Positions 3,001 to 33,989 of a stretch of 64,000 nt of DNA are shown piece by piece. The notes under the pieces were generated by a model. That model saw nothing but the letters and a program-made list of their open reading frames with translations. It ran no database searches and was not told the DNA's origin. The stretch comes from Pirellulales bacterium. GTDB lineage: Bacteria; Planctomycetota; Planctomycetia; Pirellulales; JAEUIK01. The DNA is taken from NCBI GenBank assembly GCA_019745975.1, contig JAIESQ010000011.1:1-64000 (forward strand). The letters run 5' to 3'. Each line of letters starts with the position of its first letter. Within the stretch, counting starts at the first letter, position 1. Position numbers and translations under genes: made by a program.

Positions 3001-6000
3001 GCCGGCGCATGCGGGACATCGTTCAATTCAAAGAACGTGACCCGCGGCACGACGCGGCCGTGCGGCAGTTGCTCGACGAATTGCGGCGCACTTTGGGCGA
3101 GCTGTTGCACACCTCGCTCGAGTGCCAACTCTTGAGCAACGCCGGGGAGCGCCGCATAGGCTGCCAGCGCCAGCAGCACTGCGACGATCACACCACAGGC
3201 CAAGTGATCAACGGCCGGCAGTGGCGGATTCAGCAGCCTTGCCGCCGCACTCGCGGCCGACGTGCGTGCAATCGCTGGCACGCGCGAGACAGCCAGGCGC
3301 GCGGCGAGCCAGGCGAAGCACAAGGCGCCCCACGCCAACGCCCAATGTTGCACCATGCGTGGATCGAATAACACAGAAGGGGTTACGTCAAACCAGGCTT
3401 GCTGCGAGGCGACGAGGACAGCGGTGTAAGCCGCGGCGGCAAACAGCGTCGCCTGCCCCGCGGCGAACAGCACCGACGAGCGTCGCAGCGCGGCGGCGGT
3501 CAGCCATACCAGCGCCAGCGCCAGGGCGTGGCAAGCGCGGTGCCCGAACGACGCGGCCGGCGTGAACCAGCCAAACGTTTCGCAGACCAACAAGGCGAGC
3601 GCCGCCTGCGCGGCGAGGAGCGCGGCCGATTCGATCGCCTGGATCACGGCCGCCAGCGGCGCTGGCGAAGCGTCGCCTTCCGAGCCAGCGGCACCAGCCT
3701 TGCGATCGACGACGCGCAGTCCGGCGGCCACCGCGAGCATCGCGATCGCGTGCGCAAGCGCCGCCGCCGTCCAGCCGGTCGCCAGCCCGATGCTGACATC
3801 AGGTAGGTAGACCAACCCTTGCACAATCGCCAAGGCGGCCAAGATCGCCCCGGCCGAGGCGACAACAACCGGCAAACTTTTTGGCAGCAGTTTCAAACCT
3901 GGCGATGAACCGGCGCCGGGCGGCACTGCTAGCTCGTCTAGCAGTGCCGTATCGAACTTTGCACTGCTGGGCAAGCCAGCAGTGGCACCCAAACCAGGGT
4001 TTGAAACTGCTTCTTGTGACGCCGGCAAGCGCGCGAGCGACCGGGCCAGCGCCACGGCCCCGGCGATCGCCCCGATCGAGTAGATCGCGTAGACGTACGT
4101 GGCTCCGTAGGTGTCTCCCACGACGCGGAAACCGAACGCGGTCACCAACAGCAAGCTCGCCGCGGCCAGTGCGGCGGCGATGGCCACGAAGTAGCCGGCC
4201 AGCTCGTGGCGCCGCCGCCAACTGCAGAGCGCGGCCAATCCGCCGTAGAGGACCGCCGGCACGGCCAGCGCGTTGCCGGTCACGGCCGACGCGAGCGCTC
4301 GTAGCGCCGCGTTCTGCGAAGGAGTCAACCAGTCGAGATCTCCGCGAACGACGTGGACACCAAACAGGTAGCCGATGGTCAACGCGACCGCGGCCGGCAC
4401 ATGCGCGGCCGGCATCGCATACACCTGCGCCACGAACGAGAGCACGACAAAGATGATCGCGGCCACGACGATCAGCATCGCCGGTTGCGGCCAGGCGAGC
4501 GCCGCGCCGCCGAGCATGACCCCCATGCCGACCAGCGCGATCGAGGTGCCGGCGGTTCGCAGTCCGGTGAATTCCGATTGGGCCAGCCGTCGCCAGAGGA
4601 ACAGCCCGCTAGCTAGCGCCGGCACCCCGGCCAACGTCACCAGCGGCGCGAGTCGTTCGAGCGTGTCGGCGGCCGAACCGGAGAGCGCCAACAGCAGGCC
4701 ACACGGCGCTGCCGCCGCAAAGGCGGTGATGCCCAGGATGCGAAGCAGCGCATTAATGTCCGCTTCGCTAAGCTCGGTCAGCTTGCGCATTCGGCCCAAC
4801 AGCCAGGCGACCGCGCCGCCGTGGCACGCCAGCGCCGCACCGGCCACCGCGTACAGCGGCAGGCCGGTCGACTCGGGAGTCACGAAGCGTTTGACGAACA
4901 ACTGCAAGATCGAAGGGCCAAGCACTCCGGCGACGAGCGCCGCCGCCGATCCGGCGACCAGCAGCCGGCCCGCGAAGAAGACCAGCGTGCTGAAGAGCGC
5001 CACCGATACCACTTCACCGGCGATCACCTCGGGCGAAGTTGTCGCGCTCTGGCGGGTGACCGCCGCGACGGAGAGGAAATTGAGCGGCACCAGCAGGGTG
5101 GCGATCACCAACACGCCGCGGCTGGTAGTGGGGAGTTTCCACTTTCGCGACGTGTAATAACCCAAGCCAAACAGCGCGGCCACGATGCCATTGAACAGGC
5201 CGAAACGGAGTAAGTCGCGCTCGGCGATTTGCGACCAGAAGCTGATCACCAGGGCAATTGAGCAGCCGACAATCAACAGACCGCCGACAAGCTCGCCCCA
5301 GCGGACGTTCTTTTCTTCCATGAACGCTGCCAAGAGATCGCCGAGACGGGCGCGCGGCGTGGGCGGGGCGGGAGCGGGCTGGGCGTCTGGCTGGAGACCG
5401 GTGGGCGCGATGGCGACTTCCGATTCCGCGCTGGGCACGCGAGCGCTTGTGCCGGTCAGCGCGGCCGCGGCCTGCTCGAATGGCGACGACGGGGCCGACT
5501 CTGGGCGTGCTGTGGGGAGTCGCGGCGGTACGCGTCGCGCCGGCGGCGCGCCGGGGCGCGGCGCGGCTGGTTCGACCGTGGGCCGTAGTGGTGTCGACTG
5601 CGTGCCGCGCGCCTGTGTCCGCTCGGCGACAAATTCCGTCAGCGGACTTGGCTCCGCGGCCGGATCGACAGCGCCCAGGCCGGCCAACTCGGTCTGCAGA
5701 CTGGCCAGCAGCCGGCCACTGATTTCCGGCGCTAGTTGGCCGGCGCGCTGGAGCGCTTCGATTTGGCTAACCAGTGATTGCAATGCGCGGCGCTGGTCTC
5801 CTCCTTGAATCGCATGCGGCGCGCACACCAGGCAGGTGCCGCCGACAAGTTGGGAGCCGCACCGCGGGCAGAACGTCGCTTGCTGAACGTACCTCGCTCG
5901 CGGCAGTTCGCGCTGGAGCTGGCGCTGCTTGAGGCGATCGAAAATGACGACCGCCACGAGCGCCACGAGAAACAACGGGCAGAGCAGCGCGAAGTACTCC

Positions 6001-6002
6001 AT
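54..6002 (-). CDS. Giant zinc-ribbon polytopic membrane protein, function unknown
   Basis: About 1982 residues. An N-terminal membrane segment (residues 4-22) is followed by a four-cysteine zinc ribbon (C45, C48, C57, C60), a Pro/Ala-rich linker (about 110-215), and then an almost continuous hydrophobic region from about 225 to the end with several dozen predicted membrane spans. No catalytic motif is recognisable; the layout resembles very large uncharacterised planctomycete membrane proteins. Two copies of a 130-bp repeat are translated within it, at about residues 664-707 and 1466-1509, in opposite orientations, and neither breaks the frame. Both inserted peptides are Ala/Ser/Leu-rich with Pro and Gly and probably form loops between spans. 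The start is ATG at 6000-6002; no strong ribosome binding site is visible. It stands alone, with the acyl-CoA ligase upstream on the same strand. The frame is certain; function is unknown. Confidence 0.85.
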   Translation of the reverse strand: MEYFALLCPLFLVALVAVVIFDRLKQRQLQRELPRARYVQQATFCPRCGSQLVGGTCLVCAPHAIQGGDQRRALQSLVSQIEALQRAGQLAPEISGRLLASLQTELAGLGAVDPAAEPSPLTEFVAERTQARGTQSTPLRPTVEPAAPRPGAPPARRVPPRLPTARPESAPSSPFEQAAAALTGTSARVPSAESEVAIAPTGLQPDAQPAPAPPTPRARLGDLLAAFMEEKNVRWGELVGGLLIVGCSIALVISFWSQIAERDLLRFGLFNGIVAALFGLGYYTSRKWKLPTTSRGVLVIATLLVPLNFLSVAAVTRQSATTSPEVIAGEVVSVALFSTLVFFAGRLLVAGSAAALVAGVLGPSILQLFVKRFVTPESTGLPLYAVAGAALACHGGAVAWLLGRMRKLTELSEADINALLRILGITAFAAAAPCGLLLALSGSAADTLERLAPLVTLAGVPALASGLFLWRRLAQSEFTGLRTAGTSIALVGMGVMLGGAALAWPQPAMLIVVAAIIFVVLSFVAQVYAMPAAHVPAAVALTIGYLFGVHVVRGDLDWLTPSQNAALRALASAVTGNALAVPAVLYGGLAALCSWRRRHELAGYFVAIAAALAAASLLLVTAFGFRVVGDTYGATYVYAIYSIGAIAGAVALARSLARLPASQEAVSNPGLGATAGLPSSAKFDTALLDELAVPPGAGSSPGLKLLPKSLPVVVASAGAILAALAIVQGLVYLPDVSIGLATGWTAAALAHAIAMLAVAAGLRVVDRKAGAAGSEGDASPAPLAAVIQAIESAALLAAQAALALLVCETFGWFTPAASFGHRACHALALALVWLTAAALRRSSVLFAAGQATLFAAAAYTAVLVASQQAWFDVTPSVLFDPRMVQHWALAWGALCFAWLAARLAVSRVPAIARTSAASAAARLLNPPLPAVDHLACGVIVAVLLALAAYAALPGVAQELALERGVQQLAQSAPQFVEQLPHGRVVPRVTFFELNDVPHAPAQGVGTWILLIAVGAVLIAGLWERVNSWRILGLLTTGAALMPLIGAWWEPQVAAASALRWSAAAYFLVGSIGIWSRATIARLGQRLRWPIDDTPAASNTGLQQFLKKLTPDQSASLVTAALMFLCATPLVAMGAQVAMAALHQTPLDQGLVDWTGMLAIVFAVALVIATGLILEGRGARGNSNGNERSLAAWTNPVAALALVLGAAPLVAVSIYIIATALSQNPIIGPDPSAVFRQMGGALDFSLPAVLVSLVLVGYAVRERSAAFAFAAGLATNTSATIAYSFTVGGALAARDPALWTELAQLNALVAAVYGLAWLGAVSATFRNYAAKLLANLATVPAGPLKTHPLQAVQAAVALVPCLCALGFATAVLFWDPRSPATWLPSAASPLALAAVAASLVLALAALGRDARIAIALVAVALWCGGSLASLLAVRWDQGDALALHVLLAARGVAPWLLIAAAWQYFTRSSFKTDIDPTSGATASSSSSAVSVPPLLGKPAVAPSLGFETASLSQLTLLDPRRRAVTLWATLSLLPALVVALRSVLVNDPQEPWWSTAGVGSAALVAVALATWSCRRWYLYAASALLLLMTSIWFPRTAYWNTLPGSSQLLAFIHANLLAIALPVVAWLVIELKRVRPAWEVIGSDWGLGAHRPAVWLALLAEALLTLIALVGDYFGEPMPSITPLGRAALAATLIGSAALLWDRRAREAGFFLYTLGLVIAGQLVDSLDLAGDRLLWTGAVLLGAYTLAASYLWSRRAGVAALAKRSGIPLPDHLADREWLASDAATSTPWIVVVTSLLAAIDIVLVYWVELVCPEAALRTSAAQAAVVQAFALGMLARGSRQLGSANVDSSESPDLLALRQMPLSAALQQAALLTGTLGLVAVAWSWVEPTTQHGVLARSVATCVALVATNILYGLLFAKLPWRVGDWPQAARRFMPLAVVALLTTVLAVLGQEAWHFYAFREVPLAWPGILAIALARIIHGM
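1477..1606. repeat. 130-bp structured repeat, copy A (inside coding sequence)
   Basis: The ends are a 17-bp inverted repeat with one mismatch (GAAGCTGTTTCAAAACC against GGTTTTGAAACTGCTTC). Inside are two hairpins with 9-bp stems: CACTGCTGG-cttgc-CCAGCAGTG and CACTGCTAG-acgag-CTAGCAGTG. GGGTGCC/GGCACCC can enclose both, giving a cloverleaf-like fold. It aligns without gaps to copies B and C, which have exactly the same length. It lies within the giant membrane protein gene and is read there in antisense relative to copy B. Confidence 0.9.
3884..4013. repeat. 130-bp structured repeat, copy B (inside coding sequence)
   Basis: This is the reverse complement of the copy A orientation, the same length, with both internal hairpins intact. 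The outer arms pair through GCAGTTTCAAACC/GGTTTGAAACTGC and extend into CCTGG/CCAGG. It is translated in the giant membrane protein in the sense orientation, adding peptides such as GATAGLPSSAKFDTALLDEL. By hand count it is about 85% identical to copy C (111 of 130 positions). Confidence 0.9.
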
Positions 6003-17444: not shown

Positions 17445-17581
17445 GGTTTGAAGTCTCGCTGGCAGGTAGCGCGGGTTTTCGGGCGGAGCAAAGGCGGGAA
17501 GGCGTGGCGCGCCTGGCGGGGCAGGTTCTGGCAGCCCTCGATTCTATCGATTTGCAAGTTTTCGACCACAGCGGCAGACCT

Positions 17582-17889
17582 GCAAAGTCTAAACACGAGG
17601 GGGACAGGTACGAATGGCATCAAGTTAGTACTAAGTCGATTCGCCACAGGGCTGAAGCAGTGCTGTAGCAGCACGCTTGCATCAGACCGCTGTCGCGATG
17701 ATTCTCGGGTTTCGCGCGCGGACATGGTTCGACGAATCTGCTATCGCAGCAATGCTTAACGAAACTGTGCACAGTATTTGCGCTTAACTTGATGCCATTC
17801 GGGACAGGTACATGTTTTCGGCCGACGTGAGTTGGCAAGGAATGACTTTGGCGAGCCGAAAAATGTACCAGTCCCCGACTTTGCAGTTC
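17582..17889. repeat. GGGGACAGGTAC near-palindrome, copy R2, split by an insertion
   Basis: The left end (GCAAAGTC, then GAGGGGGACAGGTAC) is separated from the rest (GGGACAGGTACATGTTTTCGG to CCGAAAAATGTACCAGTCCCC and GACTTTGCAG) by the inserted segment at 17612-17800. It occupies most of the 570-bp gap between the divergent RND exporter and PqaA-like genes. A 15-bp direct repeat, GTTTTCGACCACAGC, lies on both sides of the whole structure (17558-17572 and 17891-17905). Confidence 0.85.
17612..17800. mobile_element. 189-bp MITE-like segment with 16-bp terminal inverted repeats
   Basis: The ends are perfect inverted repeats GAATGGCATCAAGTTA (17612-17627) and TAACTTGATGCCATTC (17785-17800). An 11-bp direct repeat GGGACAGGTAC flanks it (17601-17611 and 17801-17811), consistent with insertion into R2 with target duplication or with recombination between two R-type elements. 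The interior encodes nothing convincing. Confidence 0.65.
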
Positions 17890-18018
17890 TGTTTTCGACC
17901 ACAGCCCAGTAGTAGCCGCTTGCGGCCGTGGATGTCACAATAGCCAGACCCGCACAAGCTGCCGGTGGTTTTGTCAGCCACAGCTTGCATTGAACCCACC
18001 AATCGGAGCTCGACCGCC

Positions 18019-19431
18019 GTGAGACTTCTTTCGCCTGCTTGCCAGAATCTGATCGCGTCTTGGTTGGTTGCTGCACTCGCGTTGCTCGTTGTCAGTCGCC
18101 CGGCGCTGGCTGCTCGGCCCGCGACCGTCGCGCCGGCCGACGCGCTAGCAGCCTACGTCGCCAAGGCCGACGACAGCTATCGCTGGGAGAAGCGGCAGGA
18201 GCGCGAACTGTCGGGGGTGAAGTTCGTCGAGCTGCGCCTCGTGTCGCAAACGTGGAAGGACATCGTCTGGAAGCATCAGCTTTGGATCGCGCGGCCCGCC
18301 GAAGTGGCCGATGCCTCGCAAGGGGTGCTGGTGATCTCGGGGGGCGGCTGGAACGACGAGCTCGACAAGCCGGTCGATCCAGCCAAGGCGTCTGAAGCCA
18401 AGTTGCCGGGCGAAGCGGCACTGTTAGCCCAAGTGGTGCGGCAGGTGAAGGCCCCGGTGGCACTGTTGTCGCACGTGCCCTTTCAGCCAGTGTTCGATGG
18501 GATGACCGAGGACGAAATCATCGCGTACACCTTCGAGCAGTATTTGAAAACGCGCGACCCTGAATGGCCGCTGTTGTTGCCGATGGTCAAAGCGGCGGTG
18601 CGGGCGATGGACGCCACGCAGGAATTCACCAAGAAGGAATGGCAGCTCGATGTCAAAAACTTCACGGTCACCGGCGCGTCAAAGCGCGGCTGGACCACCT
18701 GGTTGACCGGCGCGGTCGATCCGCGGGCGACTGCCATCGCGCCGATTGTGATCGACATGCTCAATGGCCCGGCGCAAATGAAGAACCAGATCGCCAGTTG
18801 GGGCAAGTATTCGGAGCAGATCGAGGACTACACGCGCCGCGGCATTCAGCAACAGATGGACACGCCAGCGGGCCACGAGCTGAGCGCGATGGTCGATCCC
18901 TACAGCTATCGCCACAAGCTAGTGCAGCCGAAGCTGCTGGTGATGGGGACGAACGATCCGTACTGGTGCCTCGACGCCTGCAATTTCTATTGGGGCGATC
19001 TGAAAGGTGAGAAGCACCTGCTCTATGTACCGAACAAAGGGCACGGGGTCGACGATTTTGGGCGGCTGCTGGGGACGATTGGCGCCTTCCATCGTCAGGC
19101 CGCCGGCCAGTTCAAGCTTCCCGATTTGAAGTGGGACTACGATTCGAGCGACGAGAAGACCACGCTCACGATGACGTCGGACGTTTCGCCGCAGAAGGTC
19201 CAAGTTTGGCTGGCCACGGCGCCGACCAAAGACTTCCGCGAATCGAAGTGGGTGTCGCAGGATGTGGCGGCCGCCGATGGCCGGTTCGTGCACGAGCTGA
19301 CGGTCCCCAGCGTCGGCTATGCGGCGATCATTGGCGAGGCGGTTTATCGCGTCGATGGCCCGCCGTTCTACCTGTCGACGAACGTGCGGATCGTCGGCGG
19401 ACCGAAATCGGACGAGGCGGGCGGGAAGTAG
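18019..19431 (+). CDS. PhoPQ-activated pathogenicity-related protein (PqaA-like), exported
   Basis: 470 residues from a GTG at 18019 that gives a good signal peptide (core WLVAALALLVVS, cleavage after PALAA). The remainder matches the PqaA/AprA-type alpha/beta-hydrolase family, common in planctomycetes and found in Dictyostelium and Salmonella. The nucleophile-elbow region reads TGASKRGWTTW, and a late PNKGHG supplies the putative catalytic histidine. The reaction is unknown. A longer reading from GTG 17965 would bury the signal peptide, so 18019 is preferred. The DUF104/PIN module follows on the same strand after 56 bases. Confidence 0.87.
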   Translation: MRLLSPACQNLIASWLVAALALLVVSRPALAARPATVAPADALAAYVAKADDSYRWEKRQERELSGVKFVELRLVSQTWKDIVWKHQLWIARPAEVADASQGVLVISGGGWNDELDKPVDPAKASEAKLPGEAALLAQVVRQVKAPVALLSHVPFQPVFDGMTEDEIIAYTFEQYLKTRDPEWPLLLPMVKAAVRAMDATQEFTKKEWQLDVKNFTVTGASKRGWTTWLTGAVDPRATAIAPIVIDMLNGPAQMKNQIASWGKYSEQIEDYTRRGIQQQMDTPAGHELSAMVDPYSYRHKLVQPKLLVMGTNDPYWCLDACNFYWGDLKGEKHLLYVPNKGHGVDDFGRLLGTIGAFHRQAAGQFKLPDLKWDYDSSDEKTTLTMTSDVSPQKVQVWLATAPTKDFRESKWVSQDVAAADGRFVHELTVPSVGYAAIIGEAVYRVDGPPFYLSTNVRIVGGPKSDEAGGK

Positions 19432-22195: not shown

Positions 22196-25100
22196 TTGAG
22201 GATTACCCGATCTACGTTGCCGCTCTTGATGTTCTGCTTCGTTGCGCCGCTCAGGGTGCTGGCCGGCGCGCCCGGGCAGCTTGAGCTCAAGCCCGGCGAT
22301 CACGTGGCGATCATCGGCAACACGCTGGCCGAGCGATTGCAGCACGATGGCTGGTTCGAGGCGCGTTTGCACGCCCGCTATCCGCAGCACCAGCTTTCGA
22401 TCCGTAACCTGGGCTTCTCGGGGGACGAATTGAAGCTGCGGTTGCGCTCGCAGGATTTCGGCAGCCCCGACGACTGGCTCACGCGCGTGGCCGCCGATGT
22501 CGTGCTGGCGATGTTCGGCCATGGCGAGTCGTATGCTGGCGAGGCAGGCCTGGCGGCGTTCAAGGCCGATCTGGCCGAGTTCATTACCCATACGCTGGGT
22601 CAGAAGTACAACGGACGTACCGCGCCGCGGCTAGCGATCATTGGCCCGCTGGCGTTCGAAAAGTTAGGCGACATCAACCTGCCCGACGGCGCGGCCGACA
22701 ACGAGCGTCGGATTCTGTACACGGCCGCGATGGCCGAGGTGTGCCAGGCGCACAACGTTCCCTTTGTCGACTTATTTGCGCTCAGCCGCGCGGCGTACGA
22801 AGCTGAGCTGCGGCCGCTGACGATCAACGGCGTACATCTGACCGAGTACGGCAACCAGGTCATCTCGCGGGCGATCGCTAAGGAATTGTTTGGCGATCCC
22901 GAGGGCGCGGCGGCGGACGACGCCAAGCTTGAGCCGCTGCGGCAGGCAGTCGCCGACAAGAGCTTCGTCTGGTTCGAGCGCTACCGCACGGTCGACGGCT
23001 ATTCGATCTATGGCGGTCGGGCCGACCTGAAGTTTGTCGCGGGGCAAACGAACCGCGTCGTTATGCAGCGTGAAATGGAAGTGCTCGACGCAATGACCGC
23101 CAATCGCGACGCGCGGATCTGGGCACTGGCGCGCGGCGAGAACCCGCCGCCAGTCGACGATTCGAACACGCCCGAGTTTATTCCCGTGGTCACGAACAAA
23201 CCGGGCCGGCTCCCGGGGGGTAAGCACGAATTCCTCGATGGCGACGCGGCGATCGAGAAGATGACCGTGGCCGATGGGATGAAGGTCAACTTGTTCGCCT
23301 CGGAAAAGCAGTTCCCCGAATTGGTCAATCCCGTGCAGATGTCGTGGGACACCGCGGGCCGACTGTGGGTGGCCGTGTGGCCCACCTATCCGCACTGGAA
23401 GCCCAAGGAAGCGATGTGCGACAAGCTGCTGGTGCTGGAAGACAGCGACGGCGACGGCCGCGCCGATCGCTGCACGCACTTTGCCGACGATCTGAACTGC
23501 CCCACCGGATTCGAGTTCTACAACGGTGGCGTGTTGGTGGCCCAAGCGCCCTATCTAATGTTCTTGAAGGACACCGATGGCGACGGGCGGGCCGACTACC
23601 GCCAGCGGCTCGTGAGCAGCCTCGACTCGGCCGATACGCACCACGCGGCCAACAGCTTCGTGCTCGATCCCGGCGGCGCAGTCTACTTTCAGGAAGGGAC
23701 GTTCCACCACACGCAGGTGGAAACTCCTTGGGGCCCGAATGTGCGGCTGGCCAACGCCGGCGTGTTCCGCTATGAGCCACGCGCGCAGAAGTTCGAGGTC
23801 TACGTCACCCACGGTTTCGCCAATCCTCACGGGCACGTCTTCGATCGTTGGGGGCAGGACATCGTGGTCGACGGCACAGGCTCGAACCCGTATCACGCGG
23901 CGCTCTTCTCGGGCCGGCTCGCATTTCCCGAAAAGCATCCTTCGCCGCCGCAGGTCTATCAACAGCGCACACGCCCTTGCCCCGGCATGGAGTACCTGAG
24001 CAGTCGGCACTTCCCCGACGCGATGCAAGGGCGATTGCTGGTCGGCAACGTGATCGGCTTCCAGGGGATATTGCAGTACGAAGTGTTCGACGAGGGCGCC
24101 AGCTTTGGGGCCAAGGAAGTCGAGCCGCTGTTGTCGTCGAGCGATCAGAACTTTCGTCCGTCGGATATCAAGATCGGGCCCGACGGCGCGATCTACTTTC
24201 TCGACTGGCACAACCCGATCATCGGCCACATGCAGCACAACTTGCGCGATCCCAGTCGCGATCGCGAGCATGGCCGCGTCTATCGAGTCACCTGCGAGGG
24301 GCGACCGCTGTCGCCGCCGACGATAATCGCCGGCGAGCCGATCCCCGCGCTGCTCGAATTGCTCAAATCGCGCGAGGAGCGCGTGCGCTACCGGGCCCGC
24401 ATCGAGCTGGCATCGCGCGAGATCGGTCCCGTGCTGGCGGATGCCAACGCGTGGATTGCCGGGCTCGACCAGAGCGCTCCCGAACGCGAGCACCACCTGC
24501 TCGACGCACTGTGGCTGATGCAGTCGTTTAACGTGGTGAATGTCGATCTGTTGAAGCGCGTACTGGCATCGCCTGACTTTCGCGCGCGGGCTGCGGCCAC
24601 GCGCGTGCTCTGCTACCAGCGCGATCGCGTCTCCGACGCCTTGGAGATGCTTAAATCGCTGGCGGCCGACGCGCATCCCCGCGTGCGGCTCGAAGCGGTG
24701 CGCGCGGCCAGCTTCTTCCCGCTGGCCGAGGCGATCGAAGTGCCGCTCGTGGCATCGGAGCATCCCAGCGATCGCTTTCTGGCGTACGTGTCGGGCGAAA
24801 CGATGAAGGCGTTGGCGCCGCACGTGCGCGACGCCATCGCGGCCCGGCGACCGATTCGTTTTACAACGCCGGCCGGGGCACGCTACTTCCTGAAAAACGT
24901 CAGCAACGACGACCTGGTGAAGCTCGATCCCACGCCGCAGGTATGGCGCGAAATGCTCTCGCGCGCGGGGATCCGCGACGAGGAGCGCCGCCGCGCCTTG
25001 CAGTCGCTGGCCGACGACCGGAAGGTAGCGCCATCCGCGCTGCTACTGGAGATCATCGCTGATCTCGACGCCGCGCAGTCGCTGGCGGACGAAAGCGTGC

Positions 25101-27163
25101 TGTTCGACCTGGTGCGGCTCTTGACCGACCTGCCGGCCGGCGACCTGTCCGTGGCGCGCGATCGCATCGAGCAACTCACTACCGAGGGGAAGCGACCAGT
25201 CACGCGGCAACTGGCCTTCGTCGCGCTGGTGGCGGCCGATGGCGGCGCCGATCGCGTTTGGGAGAGCGCCTCGACCAAGGCGTCGGCCCTAACCGATCTG
25301 GTGAGTGCCGTCCCACTCATTCGCGATCCCAGTGGGCGAGCGGCGCTCTATCAGCGCCTGGAGTCGCTAGTAGCCGGTTTGCCACCGCAACTGGCCCCCA
25401 GTGCGACGACCGATCAGGAAATGCTCGGGCGATTCGTGCGCGTGGACCTCCTCGGCCGGCAGCGCACCCTGACGCTCGCCGAGGTCGAAGTCTACAGCGA
25501 GGGGCGCAACGTCGCGCTCGATGGCCGCGCGTCGCAGAGCGACACCGCTCACGGTGGCGATGCAGCCCGCGGGATCGATGGCAATAGGTCAGGCGAGTAT
25601 TCCGCAGGCGGGCAAACCCACACCAGCGAGAACGCTCACAATCCCTGGTGGGAGGTCGATCTGGGGAGCGCACTGCCGATCGACAAGGTGGTGGTTTTCA
25701 ATCGCACCGATGACAGTTTGGGCACGCGGCTCGAAGGTTTCGTGCTCAAGGTTCTCGACGCCGATCGCAAGACGATTTTCGAGAGCGGCAAGCTGTCGGC
25801 GCCGACGCCGCAGACTGAGATCGCCGTCGGCGGCACGTCGGTCGAGCGCACGATTCGCCGCGGCGCGATGTTGGCGCTGGCCAGCATTCGCGGTCAGGAA
25901 GGGCCGGCTTTCCGGGCGATCGCTCCACGTTTGACCGACGAGCGCGATCGTCCGGCGGCGCTGGCGGCGCTGCTGCGCATTCCGCCGCAGCATTGGCCGA
26001 AGGATGACGCGCCCGCCCTGGCCGATCAGGTTTTGGCGTATCTCGGCAGCTTGCCGGTCGAAGCCCGCACGAGCCCGGCGGCACTCGACGCCGTGCAGGT
26101 CGGCGACCAGTTGGCGGCACTGTTGCCTACGGATCAGGCTGCGTCGCTGCGGCGCAAGCTGGGTGAGCTCGGCGTGCGGGTGCTGCGGTTGGGTACGGTC
26201 ACCGATCAGATGCGCTACGATCAGGAGCAGCTCGTGGTCGCCGCCGGCCGGCCGATCGAGATTCTGCTGGAAAACACCGACCTGATGCCGCACAACCTGG
26301 TGATCGCGCAGCCCGGCTCGATGGAAGAGATCGGCAATCTGGCCGAGGCAGCGGCGACCGATCCTGGCGCGGTGGCCCGCAATTACGTGCCGTCCTCGGA
26401 CAAGATCCTGCTGGCGAGCCGGCTGCTGCGCCCGCGCGAGTCGCAGCGGCTGCGCTGGACCGCGCCGACCGAGCCGGGCGTTTATCCCTATGTTTGCACC
26501 TATCCCGGGCATTGGCGGCGGATGTTCGGCAGCCTGTACGTGGTTGAGAATCTCGACGACTACCTGGCGGCCCCGGAGAAATACGTAGCCGAACATCGGT
26601 TGGCGCCGCGCGACGAACTGCTGAAGTTCAACCGCCCGCGCACTGTGTGGACCGTCGACGATCTTTCGGAGTCGATCGCGCACCTGGCCGAGCGCTCGTT
26701 CGCGGGGGGCAAACGGATGTTCGAGGTCGCCAGTTGCGTGGCTTGCCACAAGCTCAATGGCAGCGGGCAGGAATTTGGCCCCGATCTGGCGAAGCTCGAT
26801 GCCAAGTTGACGCCAGCCGATATTCTCCGCGCCGTGATCGAACCATCGCACAAGATCGACGACAAGTACACGATGTACACGTTTGAGCTCGACTCGGGCC
26901 AAACGCTCACCGCCATGATCGTAAAAGAAACCGCCGGCACGCTCGAGGTGATCGAGAATCCGCTGGCCAAAGTGCAACCAGTGGTCTTGAACAAGCAAGA
27001 AATCGTTGCCCGCGAGAAGTCGGCCGCCTCGATCATGCCCAAGGGATTGCTCGACAAACTGACGCACGAAGAGATTCTCGACTTGTTGAGCTACGTGATC
27101 GCGCGCGGCGCTGCCGAACATACGGTGTTCCAGGGTGGCGGGCACGACCACGGCGGACACTAG
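22196..27163 (+). CDS. Giant exported fusion: SGNH-like / PVC dehydrogenase / F5-8C / cupredoxin / cytochrome c
   Basis: 1655 residues. The TTG at 22196 is preceded by AAGGAAGG and gives a signal peptide. In order: an SGNH-hydrolase-like region (about 30-240; the Asp of the last block is Asn in NGVHLTEYG); a PVC-type membrane-bound dehydrogenase beta-propeller (about 345-700) with Asp-rich repeats such as DSDGDGRAD; HEAT-like repeats (about 720-900); an F5/8 type C-like sugar-binding module (about 1080-1190); a cupredoxin with ligands H1366, C1434, H1439 and M1443; and a c-type cytochrome with CVACH at 1514-1518. It probably acts in the periplasm, passing electrons from a substrate dehydrogenation through copper to haem. 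The DUF1549 gene follows after 21 bases, suggesting an operon for polysaccharide or organic substrate oxidation. Confidence 0.9.
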   Translation: MRITRSTLPLLMFCFVAPLRVLAGAPGQLELKPGDHVAIIGNTLAERLQHDGWFEARLHARYPQHQLSIRNLGFSGDELKLRLRSQDFGSPDDWLTRVAADVVLAMFGHGESYAGEAGLAAFKADLAEFITHTLGQKYNGRTAPRLAIIGPLAFEKLGDINLPDGAADNERRILYTAAMAEVCQAHNVPFVDLFALSRAAYEAELRPLTINGVHLTEYGNQVISRAIAKELFGDPEGAAADDAKLEPLRQAVADKSFVWFERYRTVDGYSIYGGRADLKFVAGQTNRVVMQREMEVLDAMTANRDARIWALARGENPPPVDDSNTPEFIPVVTNKPGRLPGGKHEFLDGDAAIEKMTVADGMKVNLFASEKQFPELVNPVQMSWDTAGRLWVAVWPTYPHWKPKEAMCDKLLVLEDSDGDGRADRCTHFADDLNCPTGFEFYNGGVLVAQAPYLMFLKDTDGDGRADYRQRLVSSLDSADTHHAANSFVLDPGGAVYFQEGTFHHTQVETPWGPNVRLANAGVFRYEPRAQKFEVYVTHGFANPHGHVFDRWGQDIVVDGTGSNPYHAALFSGRLAFPEKHPSPPQVYQQRTRPCPGMEYLSSRHFPDAMQGRLLVGNVIGFQGILQYEVFDEGASFGAKEVEPLLSSSDQNFRPSDIKIGPDGAIYFLDWHNPIIGHMQHNLRDPSRDREHGRVYRVTCEGRPLSPPTIIAGEPIPALLELLKSREERVRYRARIELASREIGPVLADANAWIAGLDQSAPEREHHLLDALWLMQSFNVVNVDLLKRVLASPDFRARAAATRVLCYQRDRVSDALEMLKSLAADAHPRVRLEAVRAASFFPLAEAIEVPLVASEHPSDRFLAYVSGETMKALAPHVRDAIAARRPIRFTTPAGARYFLKNVSNDDLVKLDPTPQVWREMLSRAGIRDEERRRALQSLADDRKVAPSALLLEIIADLDAAQSLADESVLFDLVRLLTDLPAGDLSVARDRIEQLTTEGKRPVTRQLAFVALVAADGGADRVWESASTKASALTDLVSAVPLIRDPSGRAALYQRLESLVAGLPPQLAPSATTDQEMLGRFVRVDLLGRQRTLTLAEVEVYSEGRNVALDGRASQSDTAHGGDAARGIDGNRSGEYSAGGQTHTSENAHNPWWEVDLGSALPIDKVVVFNRTDDSLGTRLEGFVLKVLDADRKTIFESGKLSAPTPQTEIAVGGTSVERTIRRGAMLALASIRGQEGPAFRAIAPRLTDERDRPAALAALLRIPPQHWPKDDAPALADQVLAYLGSLPVEARTSPAALDAVQVGDQLAALLPTDQAASLRRKLGELGVRVLRLGTVTDQMRYDQEQLVVAAGRPIEILLENTDLMPHNLVIAQPGSMEEIGNLAEAAATDPGAVARNYVPSSDKILLASRLLRPRESQRLRWTAPTEPGVYPYVCTYPGHWRRMFGSLYVVENLDDYLAAPEKYVAEHRLAPRDELLKFNRPRTVWTVDDLSESIAHLAERSFAGGKRMFEVASCVACHKLNGSGQEFGPDLAKLDAKLTPADILRAVIEPSHKIDDKYTMYTFELDSGQTLTAMIVKETAGTLEVIENPLAKVQPVVLNKQEIVAREKSAASIMPKGLLDKLTHEEILDLLSYVIARGAAEHTVFQGGGHDHGGH

Positions 27164-27184: not shown

Positions 27185-30100
27185 ATGCGACTGCCAGCTC
27201 AACGCCATTGGCTTTTGATGCTGTGCGCGGTTGGGCTACCGGTCCTGAGATCGGCGATCGCCGTTGCCGATGAACCGCGACCGCCTGCGTTTTCGGCGGC
27301 CGATCTGGAGTTCTTCGAGACCAAGGTGCGTCCGCTCTTGGTCGCGCGCTGCCACGAATGCCACTCTGGCGACAAGCCGAAGGGAGGGCTGCGGCTCGAC
27401 GCGCGCGCGGCGGTGTTGGCCGGCGGCGATACCGGCCCGGCCGCGATTGCTGGCAAACCCGACGAGAGTCTGCTGGTCGACGCCGTGCGTTACGGCGACA
27501 CCTACCAGATGCCCCCCAAAAGTCAGTTGCCGGCCGAGGAGGTTGCGGTGCTGGCCGATTGGGTGGCGCGCGGGGTGCCTTGGCCCGACGAAGCGGCGCC
27601 GCCGGCAGCCGCGAAGCCGTCGAGCGACTTCAACCTCGCCGAGCGCGCCAAGCACTGGTCGTTCCAGCGGCTGACTGATCCAGAGCCGCCAGCAGTGCGC
27701 GACGCATCGTGGCCGCGTGGGGCCATCGATCGGTTTATTCTAGCGCGGCTGGAAGCGGCCGGACTTGCGCCTGCGCCGCAGGCCGATCGCGCGGCGCTCT
27801 TGCGACGCGTGACGTTTGATCTCGTGGGGTTGCCGCCCACGCCCGAGGAACTGGTCGCGTTTCTCGCGGATACTTCGCCTGACGCGTACGAGCGCGCGGT
27901 CGATCGTTTGCTGGCCGCTCCGCAATACGGCGAGCGTTGGGCGCGCCATTGGCTCGACCTGATGCGCTATGCCGAAACACACGGCCACGAGTTCGATTTC
28001 GATATTCCAAACGCTTGGCGCTATCGCGACTATGTGATTCGCGCCTGCAACGACGATCTGCCCTTCGACCAATTCGTCGTGGAACACATCGCTGGCGACT
28101 TACTCGAGCAGCCGCGCGCCAATGCCGCCGACCGGACGAACGAGTCGATCCTGGCCACGGCCTGGTGGTTCTTGGGCGAGGCGGTGCATTCGCCGGTCGA
28201 CGTGCGGCAGGACGAGGCCGACCGCATGGCCAATCAGATCGACGTGCTCGGCAAAGCGTTCGTCGGCCTGACGATCGCCTGCGCGCGGTGCCACGATCAC
28301 AAGTTCGACCCCATTAGCAGCCGCGACTATTACGCATTGGCCGGCTACCTGCAAAGCTCGCGGTATCAGCAGGCGTATATTGATTTGGCGGATGCGGCGG
28401 TGCCTTTGGTGGAGTTCGACTCACTCAGCCGCGCGAACAAGATCGTCGAGCAGCTTTTGGCCGCCGGCGTACCACCAGCGCCGGCCGGCGCCGACGTCGT
28501 CGCGCCCGAGCCATCGCAATCGGCTACTCGCGACGGAGACGTGCTCGTGGCCGAGTTCGCCGACGGGGATTACGGCGGCTGGTCGGTTACTGGCCCAGCG
28601 TTCGGCACGCGCGCCTTGCGCCCGGCCGACGTGTCGCCCGGCGAGGAGACCGATCCGCGCAAGTTGCGCAAGGTTGGCTCGAGCCTGGCTCACAGCGGCG
28701 CGCTAGCAGGCAAGCTACGCGGCGCGCTCCGCTCGCCGACGTTCGAGATTACGCGCAGCAAGCTTCTCTATCGCGTGGCCGGCACTTCGGGCAAGGTACG
28801 GCTCGTGCTCGACGGATTGCAGCTCATTCGGGCGCCGATCTACGGTGGTCTGGAGTTTGCGCCGGGAGGCCCCGAGCTCCAGTGGCACGTACAGGATGTC
28901 AGCAAATGGATCGGGCATCGGGCCTACATCGAATTGGTCGACGATGGAGATGGCTGGTTGGCGCTCGATCGCGTGGTGCTCAGCGATCACGACGCACCTG
29001 GTGACCCAGGCGGAGCGCACTACCTGGCGACGGACCTGGCGGCTTGCCGCGCTGCCGAGCGTGACAACGCGTTGCTTGCACAATTCACGTCCGCCCCCGG
29101 CGATGCCGTCGCGACACAAGGCTCGGCGCCGATTGAATTGATTGAGCGTTTGACGGCCGAATTGACTGCGCTGGTCGACGCGCGGCGACAACTTGAAGCG
29201 GCGATCGGTGCGCCCCGTTTGGCGCCGGCGATCCTCGACGGCACCGCCGAGAACGAGCGGCTGATGATCCGCGGCAGCCCAAGGACCCTCGGTCCCGAAG
29301 TGCCGCGTCGCTGGCTTGAAGCGCTCGGCGGCCGCGATACTCCACCTGAGCAAATCGGCAGCGGTCGGCTCGAACTCGCGCGGCAGATCGTCGACACGAG
29401 CCGCAACCCACTCTTGCCGCGCGTACTGGTCAATCGGCTCTGGCATCATCATTTTGGCGCGGGGCTGGTGCGCACGCCCGACGATTTTGGTGTAATGGGG
29501 CAAGCGCCGACCCATCCGGAGTTGCTCGATTACTTGGCACGCCGCTTTGTCGATTCGGGTTGGAGCATCAAGGCCATGCAGCGCGAGATCGTGCTGTCGA
29601 GCACCTATCGCATGGCCAGCGATCCTCGCCCCGAAGCCGACACCGCCGATCCCGAGAACCGACTGTGGCATCGCCGGGCGATCCGCCGGCTCGAAGCCGA
29701 GTGTGTGCGCGACGCGATGTTGGCGATTTCCGGGCGGCTTGATCCCACGCTCTACGGACCGAGCGTGGCGCCGCATTTGACTGAGTTTATGATTGGCCGC
29801 GGCCGGCCGAGCGAATCAGGTCCGCTCGATGGCGCTGGGCGGCGCAGCATTTACCTCAATGTGCGACGCAATTTTCTTTCGCCGCTGTTGATGGCGTTCG
29901 ATTACCCCACGCCATTCACGACCATCGGCCGGCGGAGCGTGTCGAACGTGCCAGCGCAGGCCTTGGCGATGATAAACAATCCGCTGGTCGCGGGCGAGGC
30001 GGCCCGTTGGGCCGAGCTTGTGCTCGCGCTACCCGATGTCTCGGACGAGGAGCGTGTCGAGCGCATGTTCGCGGCGGCATTTTGTCGCCCGCCGAATGCA

Positions 30101-30253
30101 ACGGAACTCGCGACCGCGCGGCAGTTCTTGGAGTCGCAGCGGAGCGGCGCCCGCGAATCGAGTGAAGGTAAGCCGGCGCAGCCCGAGTTGGCCGCCTGGA
30201 CGGGGCTAGCGCACGCGCTCTGGAACGTGAAGGAGTTCGTGTTCGTGCCGTGA
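27185..30253 (+). CDS. Planctomycete cytochrome protein (PSCyt1-DUF1549-DUF1553)
   Basis: 1022 residues with a signal peptide. A c-type haem motif CHECH lies at residues 56-60 in the planctomycete cytochrome domain. DUF1549 follows (about 180-390), then a beta-rich insertion of about 200 residues beginning FADGDYGGWSV, like a carbohydrate-binding or LamG module. DUF1553 is the C-terminal part (about 690-1000), with LPRVLVNRLWHHHFG. These proteins are normally encoded next to a DUF1501 protein and are thought to act together in the periplasm, although the reaction is unproven. Here the DUF1501 gene is pushed about 600 bases downstream by a toxin-antitoxin module. The ATG at 27185 has GAGGAAC upstream. 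Confidence 0.92.
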   Translation: MRLPAQRHWLLMLCAVGLPVLRSAIAVADEPRPPAFSAADLEFFETKVRPLLVARCHECHSGDKPKGGLRLDARAAVLAGGDTGPAAIAGKPDESLLVDAVRYGDTYQMPPKSQLPAEEVAVLADWVARGVPWPDEAAPPAAAKPSSDFNLAERAKHWSFQRLTDPEPPAVRDASWPRGAIDRFILARLEAAGLAPAPQADRAALLRRVTFDLVGLPPTPEELVAFLADTSPDAYERAVDRLLAAPQYGERWARHWLDLMRYAETHGHEFDFDIPNAWRYRDYVIRACNDDLPFDQFVVEHIAGDLLEQPRANAADRTNESILATAWWFLGEAVHSPVDVRQDEADRMANQIDVLGKAFVGLTIACARCHDHKFDPISSRDYYALAGYLQSSRYQQAYIDLADAAVPLVEFDSLSRANKIVEQLLAAGVPPAPAGADVVAPEPSQSATRDGDVLVAEFADGDYGGWSVTGPAFGTRALRPADVSPGEETDPRKLRKVGSSLAHSGALAGKLRGALRSPTFEITRSKLLYRVAGTSGKVRLVLDGLQLIRAPIYGGLEFAPGGPELQWHVQDVSKWIGHRAYIELVDDGDGWLALDRVVLSDHDAPGDPGGAHYLATDLAACRAAERDNALLAQFTSAPGDAVATQGSAPIELIERLTAELTALVDARRQLEAAIGAPRLAPAILDGTAENERLMIRGSPRTLGPEVPRRWLEALGGRDTPPEQIGSGRLELARQIVDTSRNPLLPRVLVNRLWHHHFGAGLVRTPDDFGVMGQAPTHPELLDYLARRFVDSGWSIKAMQREIVLSSTYRMASDPRPEADTADPENRLWHRRAIRRLEAECVRDAMLAISGRLDPTLYGPSVAPHLTEFMIGRGRPSESGPLDGAGRRSIYLNVRRNFLSPLLMAFDYPTPFTTIGRRSVSNVPAQALAMINNPLVAGEAARWAELVLALPDVSDEERVERMFAAAFCRPPNATELATARQFLESQRSGARESSEGKPAQPELAAWTGLAHALWNVKEFVFVP

Positions 30254-30851: not shown

Positions 30852-32300
30852 ATGCACTGTGGCCGCTTCCAAAACCCGCCGCTGACTCGCCGCGACGTGC
30901 TGCGTCAGGCCGCCAATGGCTTTGGCGCGACGGCGCTGGCGGCACTATTGGCCGACGATCGGGCGTTCGGTGCAACCGACGCGGCGCGCCAGGTGAGCCA
31001 GTCGGTTCGCGGCGGTCCGTATGAGCCGCGCCCGCCGCACTATCGGCCGCGCGCCACCAGCGTGATCTTTCTGTTCATGGATGGCGGTCCGTCGCAGGTC
31101 GACACGTTCGACCCCAAGCCGCGGCTGGCCCGCGAGCACGGCCAGCCGATTCAGGCCAAGGTGCAGCCGACGCAGTTCGACAATGTCGGTACGGTGTTGG
31201 CTTGCCCTTGGGAGTTTCGCCAGTACGGCGCCAGCGGCATCCCCGTGAGCGACTTGTTTCCGCACACCGCTCGGCACGTCGACGACATGGCGGTCATCCG
31301 CTCGATGGTGTCGAACTTCTCCGAGCACACGTTCGCCAATTACTTCTTGCACACGGGCTCCGGTCAGCAAGGCCGCCCCAGTATGGGTTCGTGGGCGACG
31401 TATGGGTTGGGAAGCGAGTGCCGCGACTTGCCGGGCTTTGTCGTGTTGACCAGCGGGATGATTCCGCCGGGGGGGCTCGATTGTTTCGGCAGCGGGTTTT
31501 TGCCGGTGGCGTTTCAGGGGTCGCTCTTTCAGCGGGGGCCGACACCCGTGGCCGATCTGGCGCCCGGTGAACAAGCGCCGGCGAACGAGGCGGCCCAGCG
31601 CGACCTGGTGCGGGCCTTCGATCGGCAGCTCGCCGAGCGCCGCGGAGCCGACGACCCCTTGGAAGCGGCGATCGCCAACTTTGAGCTGGCGTGCCGGATG
31701 CAGACCGCCGTTCCGGAGCTCGCCGACCTGTCGAGCGAAACTTCGGCGACGCACCAGCTTTACGGGATCGACGAGCCGGCGACCGAGGTCTTCGGCCGAC
31801 AATGCTTGCTGGCGCGCCGACTCGTGGAACGAGGCGTACGGTTCATCGAGCTGTTGCCGCAGAACCTGGGCTTCGACCGCTGGGATCAGCACAGCAACCT
31901 GCGCGAAGGTCACGCCAAGAACGCGCTGGCAACCGACAGGCCGATCGCCGGGCTCTTGGCCGATCTCAAGCAGCGGGGGTTGCTCGAGAGCACGCTCGTG
32001 GTGTGGGGCGGAGAATTCGGCCGCACTCCCATGGCGCAAGGTGTCGATGGGCGGGACCACAACCCTTATGGCTTCAGCATGTGGTTAGCCGGCGGGGGTA
32101 TCCGCGGCGGCACGATTCACGGCGCCACCGATGACTACGGGTATCACGTGGTCGAAAACAAAGTCGAGATTCACGACCTGCACGCCACGATGCTGCACCT
32201 CTTGGGGCTCGACCACAAGCGACTGACCGTGCGCTTTGGCGGCCGCGATATGCGCCTGACCGACGTGCACGGCGAAGTGCTCAAACGGTTAGTGGCCTAG
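30852..32300 (+). CDS. DUF1501 protein, Tat-exported
   Basis: 482 residues. The N terminus carries a twin-arginine signal (TRRDVLRQAANGFGATALAALL). The DUF1501 body belongs to the alkaline-phosphatase/sulfatase-like fold, with FLFMDGGPSQVDTFDPK near the start, LLPQNLGFDRWDQHSN and WGGEFGRTP in the middle, and GRDHNPYGFS as the His-rich metal site. It is the usual partner of DUF1549/DUF1553 proteins such as the one encoded at 27185-30253. Expected in the periplasm; substrate unknown. Confidence 0.92.
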   Translation: MHCGRFQNPPLTRRDVLRQAANGFGATALAALLADDRAFGATDAARQVSQSVRGGPYEPRPPHYRPRATSVIFLFMDGGPSQVDTFDPKPRLAREHGQPIQAKVQPTQFDNVGTVLACPWEFRQYGASGIPVSDLFPHTARHVDDMAVIRSMVSNFSEHTFANYFLHTGSGQQGRPSMGSWATYGLGSECRDLPGFVVLTSGMIPPGGLDCFGSGFLPVAFQGSLFQRGPTPVADLAPGEQAPANEAAQRDLVRAFDRQLAERRGADDPLEAAIANFELACRMQTAVPELADLSSETSATHQLYGIDEPATEVFGRQCLLARRLVERGVRFIELLPQNLGFDRWDQHSNLREGHAKNALATDRPIAGLLADLKQRGLLESTLVVWGGEFGRTPMAQGVDGRDHNPYGFSMWLAGGGIRGGTIHGATDDYGYHVVENKVEIHDLHATMLHLLGLDHKRLTVRFGGRDMRLTDVHGEVLKRLVA

Positions 32301-32372: not shown

Positions 32373-33989
32373 TCAAACGGATACGGGCTGTGCCGGCGCC
32401 AGTTGTGCCTTCTGAGTGAACTTGATGGGCTCTGGGCGGCGGAGGATGGCTCCCAAGCGCTGTTCGAGCACGGTATCGCTCTCGTTGGCGATGAGATTCT
32501 TGAGGAGTTTCACCAAGCGCCACGGTCGTACGAGGTACGACAGACCGAAGAACGACGCCATGCCGACGACGCGCCACCATCTGAGCTCGCGGCCGCTCAT
32601 GTTGCGGCAATAGTCGGTCGCGGAAAACATGTCCATGAACGCGACCAGCGAGCGGAAGTACTTGTCGTCCAGCTCGCCGATCCGCCCCTCGGCTCGGAGC
32701 TGATCGAATAGCGAACTGCCTGGGTACGGCGAGAATAGGAAGAACGCCGCATCGTGCACCCCGAGGAATGCCAACTTCCAGGCGAACAGCACGCTCTTGA
32801 CCATGTCGCGGCGCGTATCGTCGGGGAAGCCGACAACCATGTTCACTTTCACGCGCACTCCGGCTGCCAGCGCTGAGCGGATCGACTTGGTTAGGCGTCC
32901 CAAGTCGACCTGCTTCTTAATGCGCTTGAGAGTTTCGGGCGATCCACTCTCGGGAGCATAAGTGATGTTGCGGCAGCCGGTGCGATAGAGCGCCCGACTG
33001 ACTTCGTCGTCGATTACTTCGCTCCGCGTGCCGGTGGGCAACTGCCAAGTGAAGTTCAATCCGCGGCGCTCAATCTCGCTACAGAATTCCAGAATCCAGC
33101 TCTTCTTGAGAATGAACGTCAGATCGTAGAAATCGATGTTCCGCGCCCCGTACTTCGCCATGTACAGCTCAATCTCATCCAGCACGTCGGACGGCGAGCG
33201 TGCCATCCACAGGTTGCCGTACATCACCGGGTTCGAGCAGAACGTGCACTTGTAGGGGCAGCCACGCGTCGCCAGGATGCCCATGCTGCGACCGCGAAAC
33301 ACGCCGTGAGCATTGCGGGTGGAAAGATAGACCTCCATGTTGAAGTAGTGCCAGGCCGGGAAGGGCAAGTCGTCGACGGCCCGAATGCGCTTCCGAGAGC
33401 AGGTCTGGACGATGCGACCGCGCTCGAGAAACGCCAGACCGGCGACTTGCCGTAGTCGGTCTGGGTCGTCGAGGCTATTGACTAATTCGAGCAGCGTCTC
33501 CTCGCCTTCGCCGAGCACGCAGTAATCGAGTTCCGGGCAATCGCGCAGGCAAAACTCGGGCAGGGCCGTGACGTGCTCGCCACCAACAACGATCACCGTT
33601 CGGGGAAACCGCGCGCGAATGGCGCGCATCAGGGTCCGCAGCCAAGGCCAGTCCTGCGTGAACATGCAGGAGACACCGATGAGGTCGGTGTGGCGGTCAA
33701 TCTGGTCAACAGTCTCTTCGATCGTCAGCCCGTGAAACAGGTAGCCGTCTTCTTCAATGTGCTGGTCAACCCCTTCGGCGATCGCATCGATCACCTGCAC
33801 TTTGGTGCCATTCTCCTCGAGGACGGCCGCCAAATAGGCCAGCCCCAGCGGGGGGGTAAGTGCCTCGGTCCACGAATTGGTGGAACTTACTTGCGCCGGC
33901 CGAATTAACGTCACGAGCTTGACGCTTGCGCTACGTGGCGCTGGCAGATCAACTATCGACAGTACCTCGGAGTGTTCCACCAGCGACAT
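32373..33989 (-). CDS. B12-binding radical SAM protein
   Basis: 538 residues. The N-terminal cobalamin-binding Rossmann region (about 22-160, with PPLGLAYLAAVLEENG and VVGGEHVT) is followed by a radical SAM barrel with the cluster motif CPYKCTFC (C-x3-C-x2-C) and the GGE-like/SAM patterns downstream (YAPESGSPETLKRIKK). A C-terminal tail has a hydrophobic patch. This is the BchE/HpnR class, whose members methylate unactivated carbons or rearrange rings. The reaction cannot be deduced. It is monocistronic and convergent with the DUF1501 gene. Confidence 0.9.
   Translation of the reverse strand: MSLVEHSEVLSIVDLPAPRSASVKLVTLIRPAQVSSTNSWTEALTPPLGLAYLAAVLEENGTKVQVIDAIAEGVDQHIEEDGYLFHGLTIEETVDQIDRHTDLIGVSCMFTQDWPWLRTLMRAIRARFPRTVIVVGGEHVTALPEFCLRDCPELDYCVLGEGEETLLELVNSLDDPDRLRQVAGLAFLERGRIVQTCSRKRIRAVDDLPFPAWHYFNMEVYLSTRNAHGVFRGRSMGILATRGCPYKCTFCSNPVMYGNLWMARSPSDVLDEIELYMAKYGARNIDFYDLTFILKKSWILEFCSEIERRGLNFTWQLPTGTRSEVIDDEVSRALYRTGCRNITYAPESGSPETLKRIKKQVDLGRLTKSIRSALAAGVRVKVNMVVGFPDDTRRDMVKSVLFAWKLAFLGVHDAAFFLFSPYPGSSLFDQLRAEGRIGELDDKYFRSLVAFMDMFSATDYCRNMSGRELRWWRVVGMASFFGLSYLVRPWRLVKLLKNLIANESDTVLEQRLGAILRRPEPIKFTQKAQLAPAQPVSV

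Follow-up and report, generated by a model that had tools for sequence, protein, structure and literature searches.

CcPDH of Coprinopsis carries a CBM1 carbohydrate-binding module, and a carbohydrate-binding module is also one of its likenesses to the planctomycete protein described here. This PQQ pyranose dehydrogenase (AA8-AA12) likewise unites a sugar-oxidising propeller fold and a redox domain in one chain, although in the accessible part of its report the AA8 domain holds b-haem, copper is absent, and the Arg430 described there has no counterpart in our propeller (PMC6881789). The PVC-type heme-binding CxxCH proteins (TIGR02604 + TIGR02603) share the propeller, the HEAT repeats and, at the C-terminus, the TIGR02603 haem domain. 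Only one member of the family turned up in print as a purified protein, Lac161_ORF7 (TIGR02604 + HEAT_2 + TIGR02603); it is reported as a beta-galactosidase and, as far as the available text describes it, consists of three domains, none of them a copper or lectin domain (PMC5342196), whereas the protein analyzed here adds SGNH-like, lectin-like and cupredoxin domains. Giant PVC-type haem proteins are numerous in planctomycetes and uncharacterized. We found no description of a copper-haem-propeller fusion among the openly licensed papers listed by our searches; an azurin survey, in the part available, puts its single planctomycete hit down to contamination or misannotation (PMC8779525), and the accessible part of PMC5673643 deals with DUF1080 and has no bearing on the fusion.

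The gene lies in the window, by which we mean the whole 64,000-nucleotide stretch of DNA that was analyzed, and on the forward strand it stays open for 1655 codons, in agreement with the 1655 residues of the initial annotation. Its TTG start is immediately preceded by a AGGAAGGA-like ribosome site. The protein had been called exported, and its N-terminus looks Sec-like; a Sec-type signal, read by eye, is plausible. The order given earlier for the domains (SGNH, propeller, HEAT, F5/8C, cupredoxin, haem) is recovered by Pfam and NCBIfam matches above their cut-offs, and the complete order is found again in relatives. The features of the protein are as follows:

22196..27163, forward strand (+), open reading frame of 1655 aa with a TTG start (ORF listing)
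22196..22264, +, putative Sec signal peptide, residues 1-23 (hydrophobic N-terminus, read by eye)
22283..22900, +, SGNH-like domain, residues 30-235 (Pfam Lipase_GDSL_2, 46.2 bits; T43, N211)
23228..24310, +, TIGR02604/DUF7133 propeller, residues 345-705 (Pfam, NCBIfam, AF2, fold matches to PQQ sugar dehydrogenases)
24329..25375, +, HEAT-repeat region, residues 712-1060 (HEAT_2 match at 785-849; extent from our own alignment blocks)
25415..25831, +, circularly permuted F-type-lectin-like domain, residues 1074-1212 (F5_F8_type_C_2, F-type lectin chains, strand order)
26168..26551, +, auracyanin-like cupredoxin, residues 1325-1452, with ligands H1366, C1434, H1439 and M1443 (Copper-bind, fold match)
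26687..27121, +, TIGR02603 c-type haem domain, residues 1498-1642, with CVACH at 1514-1518 and distal M1614 (NCBIfam, Kustd1711 alignment)

Since every score exceeds its curated cut-off, each domain is far beyond chance. The Pfam scores are 221 bits for DUF7133, 46.2 for Lipase_GDSL_2, 39.6 for F5_F8_type_C_2, 31.1 for HEAT_2, 29.0 for Cytochrom_C and 27.2 for Copper-bind; the NCBIfam models score 219.2 bits (TIGR02604, cut-off 122.2) and 91.5 bits (TIGR02603, cut-off 68.15). The matches themselves cover residues 51-222 (SGNH-like), 351-699 (DUF7133/TIGR02604), 785-849 (HEAT_2), 1127-1211 (F5/8 type C-like), 1336-1449 (Copper-bind), 1504-1547 (Cytochrom_C) and 1505-1634 (TIGR02603).

By sequence comparison the protein is not unique but is a member of a large, uncharacterized planctomycete family. 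A whole-protein search of 57 genomes, its own included, gave matches in 56, and 13 other genomes have an ORF whose alignment exceeds 1500 residues, with 49-66% identity for 12 of these 13 relatives. Scanning genome contigs with an alignment of the C-terminal region recovered at least 585 relatives, of which the best 80, found with the patterns CT[YF]PGHWR and RM[YFH]G[AS][LM]YVV, were kept as loci. Wherever a title among the 80 gives a group, the group is planctomycetes, and two titles read simply "bacterium." At 67 of these best 80 loci a single frame holds the SGNH, propeller, cupredoxin and haem domains; 11 of the remaining 13 are at a contig edge, one (L073) is without the SGNH domain and one (L100) has only the copper and haem domains. 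These 67 loci and the window protein make up the 68 full-length rows of the alignment used below. The search for similar fusions that had been suggested earlier was productive in the phylum at large, where 80 of the 393 genomes sampled have a match that extends across both the cupredoxin and the haem domain (105 places), 31 of the 80 belonging to the close family at more than 480 bits. The same genome as the window encodes a second protein, of another type, that combines DUF6797, a DUF7133-like propeller and Copper-bind (L001/L026, contig C111, about 17466-19091).

An SGNH hydrolase has a Ser in block I and an Asp and a His in block V, and the window protein lacks this set. The apparent loss of the catalytic Asp, remarked on in the initial annotation, is real (N211), and the nucleophile Ser is missing as well, the GDSL motif reading GNTL. 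Across the family the nucleophile position is Ser in none of the 67 rows that have a residue at this point (T 53, G 10, A 3, V 1) and block V position 211 is N in 56 rows and D in 12, while His214 is kept in 67 of 68. The domain is conserved, yet these substitutions make an ordinary esterase role very unlikely; it is probably non-hydrolytic, with a binding or structural role.

The module assigned earlier to F5/8C and to sugar binding can be placed more precisely. Its lectin-like character stands, the best PDB sequence matches of residues 1058-1204 being FBP32 and other F-type (fucose) lectins, and its topology has to be corrected to a circular permutation, because the AEVEV strand is placed first in the window domain. 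The strand pair RFVRV..LTLAEVEV, which comes last in F-type lectins, leads the core in all 49 readable rows of the 68, and no second copy of the pair was found behind the core in those rows. The fucose-site His, Arg, Asp/Glu and Arg and the cation motif IDGN are all present. THT, NRxD and Arg are placed as in fucose binders, with spacings of 27 and then 5 rather than 24 and 4, the F-type motif being given as HX24RXDX4(R/K) in the accessible part of PMC5712786. The His-Arg spacing of 27 recurs in 46 of 47 motif-bearing rows. Fucose binding by this domain is possible. L-fucose is also the most active, though weak, substrate of the Trichoderma AA12 enzyme in the available part of PMC6881810, which we regard as a curious parallel only.

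The propeller (residues 345-705, 68 rows) is modeled by AF2 with a pLDDT of 89.9 and a pTM of 0.90, and the top 16 of the 50 listed fold matches to the model are PQQ sugar dehydrogenases or apo forms (Z 24.6-28.2). The best is AA12 of Trichoderma (6h7t; Z 28.2, 2.9 A, 292 residues aligned), and the set includes 3a9g (27.4), CcPDH (6jt5, 27.2), sGDH (26.2) and 3das (24.6). SMP30, HHIP and DFPase come next at about 23, with lactonases and others at or below 23.3. When profiles were compared, the propeller matched a set of 13 GSDH proteins, among them E. coli YliI, with a probability of 95.3 (E 2.4e-8); in this match H483 falls on the catalytic His of sGDH, N543 on its Asn229 and R654 on its Arg406. 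Because sequence searching of solved structures with the propeller gave no PQQ enzyme, and a second search only short blade-level matches, the link to PQQ is one of fold and profile; the Pfam GSDH model scores 12.7 bits, short of its cut-off of 25.

The cofactor pocket is only partly that of a PQQ enzyme. With sGDH residue numbers assigned by motif and from the accessible parts of PMC6881789 and PMC6881810, the catalytic His144 corresponds to H483 in 68 of 68 rows. Of the Arg-Asx pair found beside the PQQ ketones only Asn543 is kept, the Arg228 site being Ala in 56 rows and Pro in 12. The Lys377 site is Ile, and the Arg408 site is S, A, T or V in the alignment of the family. AA12 is also without Lys377 and Arg408, yet retains the Arg-Asx pair, according to the same partial sources. 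The genome of the window has 25 TIGR02604 match rows; GFRNP is kept by two distant paralogues, and other readable motifs include GTSNPWG, GQVNPFG and GTTNPWG, so the loss of the Arg extends beyond the subfamily of the window protein. Given the missing Arg and other ligands, we state only that the propeller may work like a sugar dehydrogenase, as its modeled fold suggests, and do not call it a PQQ enzyme. PqqE and PqqC matches over cut-off were found in 0 of 54 genomes of relatives, and the control genomes likewise gave no match over cut-off. PQQ can be imported.

In the propeller some 30 residues with polar or aromatic side chains, among them H482, H483, N543, H545, R593 and R654, are invariant in the 68 rows. 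This bears on the alternative that the propeller is non-catalytic and that the protein serves as a glycan-binding electron conduit or scaffold at the cell surface, in the manner of HHIP, a ligand-binding protein with the sGDH fold. The presence of HHIP among the fold matches, the catalytic residues lost from the SGNH domain and the incomplete PQQ pocket all agree with such a role, but the invariant residues are more than a scaffold would need, and we consider it improbable.

A different activity is suggested by Lac161_ORF7, which after purification freed glucose from lactose with a Km of 1.8 mM in the accessible part of its report (PMC5342196). By analogy, the propeller here could be a glycosidase or an oxidation-elimination enzyme, with copper and haem used for a transient oxidation or for something separate, and the incomplete set of PQQ ligands would be in keeping with this. 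The top fold matches, however, are oxidoreductases rather than glycosidases, and the invariant redox ligands would still need explaining. In addition, Lac161_ORF7 was made in E. coli and assayed by glucose release, and the available part of the report contains no host LacZ control that we could see. Its Table 3 gives a kcat of 13.2 per s, from which kcat/Km is about 7.3e3, a tenth of the printed 7.3e4, and the activity therefore deserves repetition (PMC5342196). Until it is repeated, the lactose hydrolysis stands, on this partial source, as the strongest counter-evidence to an oxidoreductase, and we keep the hydrolytic reading as a less likely one.

The type 1 copper ligands, numbered correctly in the initial annotation as H1366, C1434, H1439 and M1443, are invariant in 68 of 68 rows, as are both Cys and the His of the CVACH haem site reported there and, in addition, the distal M1614. 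C1434, H1439 and M1443 lay inside the patterns used to find the loci, and H1366, CxxCH and M1614 lay outside them; in the set from the whole-protein search, which used no patterns, the copper ligands and CxxCH are present in 14 of 14 rows and M1614 in 13 of 13, one row being short. The His, Cys, His, Met set sits in a cupredoxin fold, as in type 1 copper proteins. The nearest folds are auracyanins, with Z 18.4 and 1.7 A over 119 residues for 6kol and Z 18.2, 1.3 A and 32% identity over 119 residues for 2aan, followed by azurins at Z of about 16; the Azurin equivalog TIGR02695 scores 28.6 bits, below its cut-off of 105.1. Auracyanins A and B were solved as single-domain chains, unlike the cupredoxin here, which is fused between propeller and haem domain. 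The haem domain aligns with the second (C-terminal) haem domain of Kustd1711 (7zs0) continuously from CxxCH through the intervening stretch to the Met of SIMP. Kustd1711 is a diheme cytochrome with haem potentials near +350 mV, raised by calcium, and, in the part of its description available, differs in having a pair of haem domains plus a beta-domain insertion, without copper or propeller (PMC11791136). The AF2 model of residues 1310-1655 (pLDDT 89.9, pTM 0.69) contains two well-defined domains whose mutual placement is not firm.

Both the tether and the relay module are exchanged in place among relatives. By our own profile the lectin is missing from 7 of the 67 one-frame loci, and PA14 occupies its position in all five full-size lectin-less proteins; the other two, L058 and L118, are shorter, with propeller-to-end stretches of 1166 and 1158 residues. 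Four of the five PA14 proteins match Pfam Copper-bind, and the fifth (L112) has a weak Cupredoxin_1 match and the full ligand set. Two further loci, L053 (1456-6141) and L056 (1438-6084), encode SGNH-propeller-HEAT-PA14-cytochrome c-TIGR02603 proteins with two c-type haem sites, and a CATCH site (at 1349 and 1338, respectively) occupies the position of the copper domain. This PA14-cytochrome form occurs in 5 of 60 genomes of the L053/L056 family, as found by a match to the last 472 residues. L048 and L050 are fused forms that lack copper. At seven other loci without a cupredoxin the SGNH-propeller-HEAT protein (one lacking its start) stops after the first HEAT block, and at four of them (L044, L052, L054 and L055), with flanks examined up to about 1.5 kb, the next same-strand ORF encodes a HEAT-like region and a TIGR02603 haem domain without a copper motif, overlapping the propeller gene or starting about 40 bases on.

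When 46 propeller rows are placed in a tree, the PA14-cytochrome rows share a supported group with L118, L134, L122 and L049, all of them copper rows (supports 100/100 and 100/99; inner forks of 94/91 and 93/76 are just below the bar). Because of this nested position, the sequences are most simply read as a replacement of copper by haem in the slot. Thirteen forks of the tree are open, and the copper label has to change seven times overall, from which it follows that fusion and loss occurred repeatedly. The in-place exchange of copper and haem is a new argument that supports the copper domain as an electron relay, since a cytochrome c occupies the cupredoxin slot. It also weighs, together with the complete type 1 ligand set and the auracyanin fold, against a cupredoxin that stores, delivers or senses copper outside any electron path; the model predicts no firm copper-haem contact, as such a role would allow, and we give it very little credence.

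We favor, with a degree of confidence a little better than even, a one-chain extracytoplasmic carbohydrate oxidoreductase with a copper-haem relay. The lectin-like module (PA14 in relatives) would hold the glycan, and the sGDH/AA12-type propeller would oxidize a sugar unit, with His483 as the base and an organic cofactor that we leave unnamed. Single electrons would then travel by way of the type 1 copper to the haem at the C-terminus, and from there we infer a transfer to a soluble or PSCyt-type cytochrome as the partner and on to an oxidase. The fold and profile matches of the propeller, the invariant copper and haem ligands, the auracyanin-like cupredoxin, the alignment with a Kustd1711 haem domain, the slot swaps and the separate TIGR02603 cytochrome gene behind the SGNH-propeller-HEAT gene at 4 of 7 loci count for this oxidoreductase; the missing Arg, Lys377 and Arg408 equivalents, the 0 of 54 result for PqqE and PqqC (a search without a positive control), the Lac161_ORF7 hydrolysis, the pTM of 0.69 and the want of a conserved operon partner count against it. 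The substrate-to-haem path proposed in the initial annotation is partly supported; it gains support in its relay half, from the conserved copper and haem sites and the relay swap, and is weakened in its first step, the oxidation by the propeller, by the incomplete PQQ pocket and the reported hydrolysis.

A broader and rather doubtful proposal is that the family forms a modular respiratory platform, with blue copper or c-haem in its one relay slot, PA14 or a permuted F-type lectin in its one tether slot, and a non-PQQ cofactor in the propeller. If so, electrons from extracellular or periplasmic glycans would enter respiration directly, without import of sugar into the cytoplasm, and the electron feed would be tuned by metal availability. 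The natural series of copper or haem in one slot, with cytochromes fused or split, offers a direct test of the electron-wire role and of the substrate, and a one-chain propeller-copper-cytochrome relay would be a model for biosensors or bioelectrodes.

Two genes follow on the same strand:

27185..30253, +, PSCyt1-PSCyt2-PSD1 (DUF1549/DUF1553) protein, 21 bases past the stop of the window ORF (ORF listing, Pfam)
30852..32300, +, DUF1501 protein, the following gene on the strand (Pfam)

PSD1 or DUF1501 genes are the commonest neighbors, near 19 of the 80 loci in flanks of variable length up to 10 kb, and the next-commonest families are found at no more than 6 of the 80; no constant operon partner was found across the 80 loci. 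Neighbors in the representatives scanned include a PQQ_2 propeller, DUF480, DUF1559, VWA, a histidine kinase and URO-D. Elsewhere in the window, an ORF of 1982 aa at 54-6002 (-) has no Pfam match at E 1e-4, and 32373-33989 (-) encodes a B12-binding radical SAM protein with none of its 25 listed NCBIfam matches over cut-off. A sulfatase is encoded at 59396-61540 (+), about 32 kb from the 22196..27163 ORF, and would fit the use of sulfated glycans.
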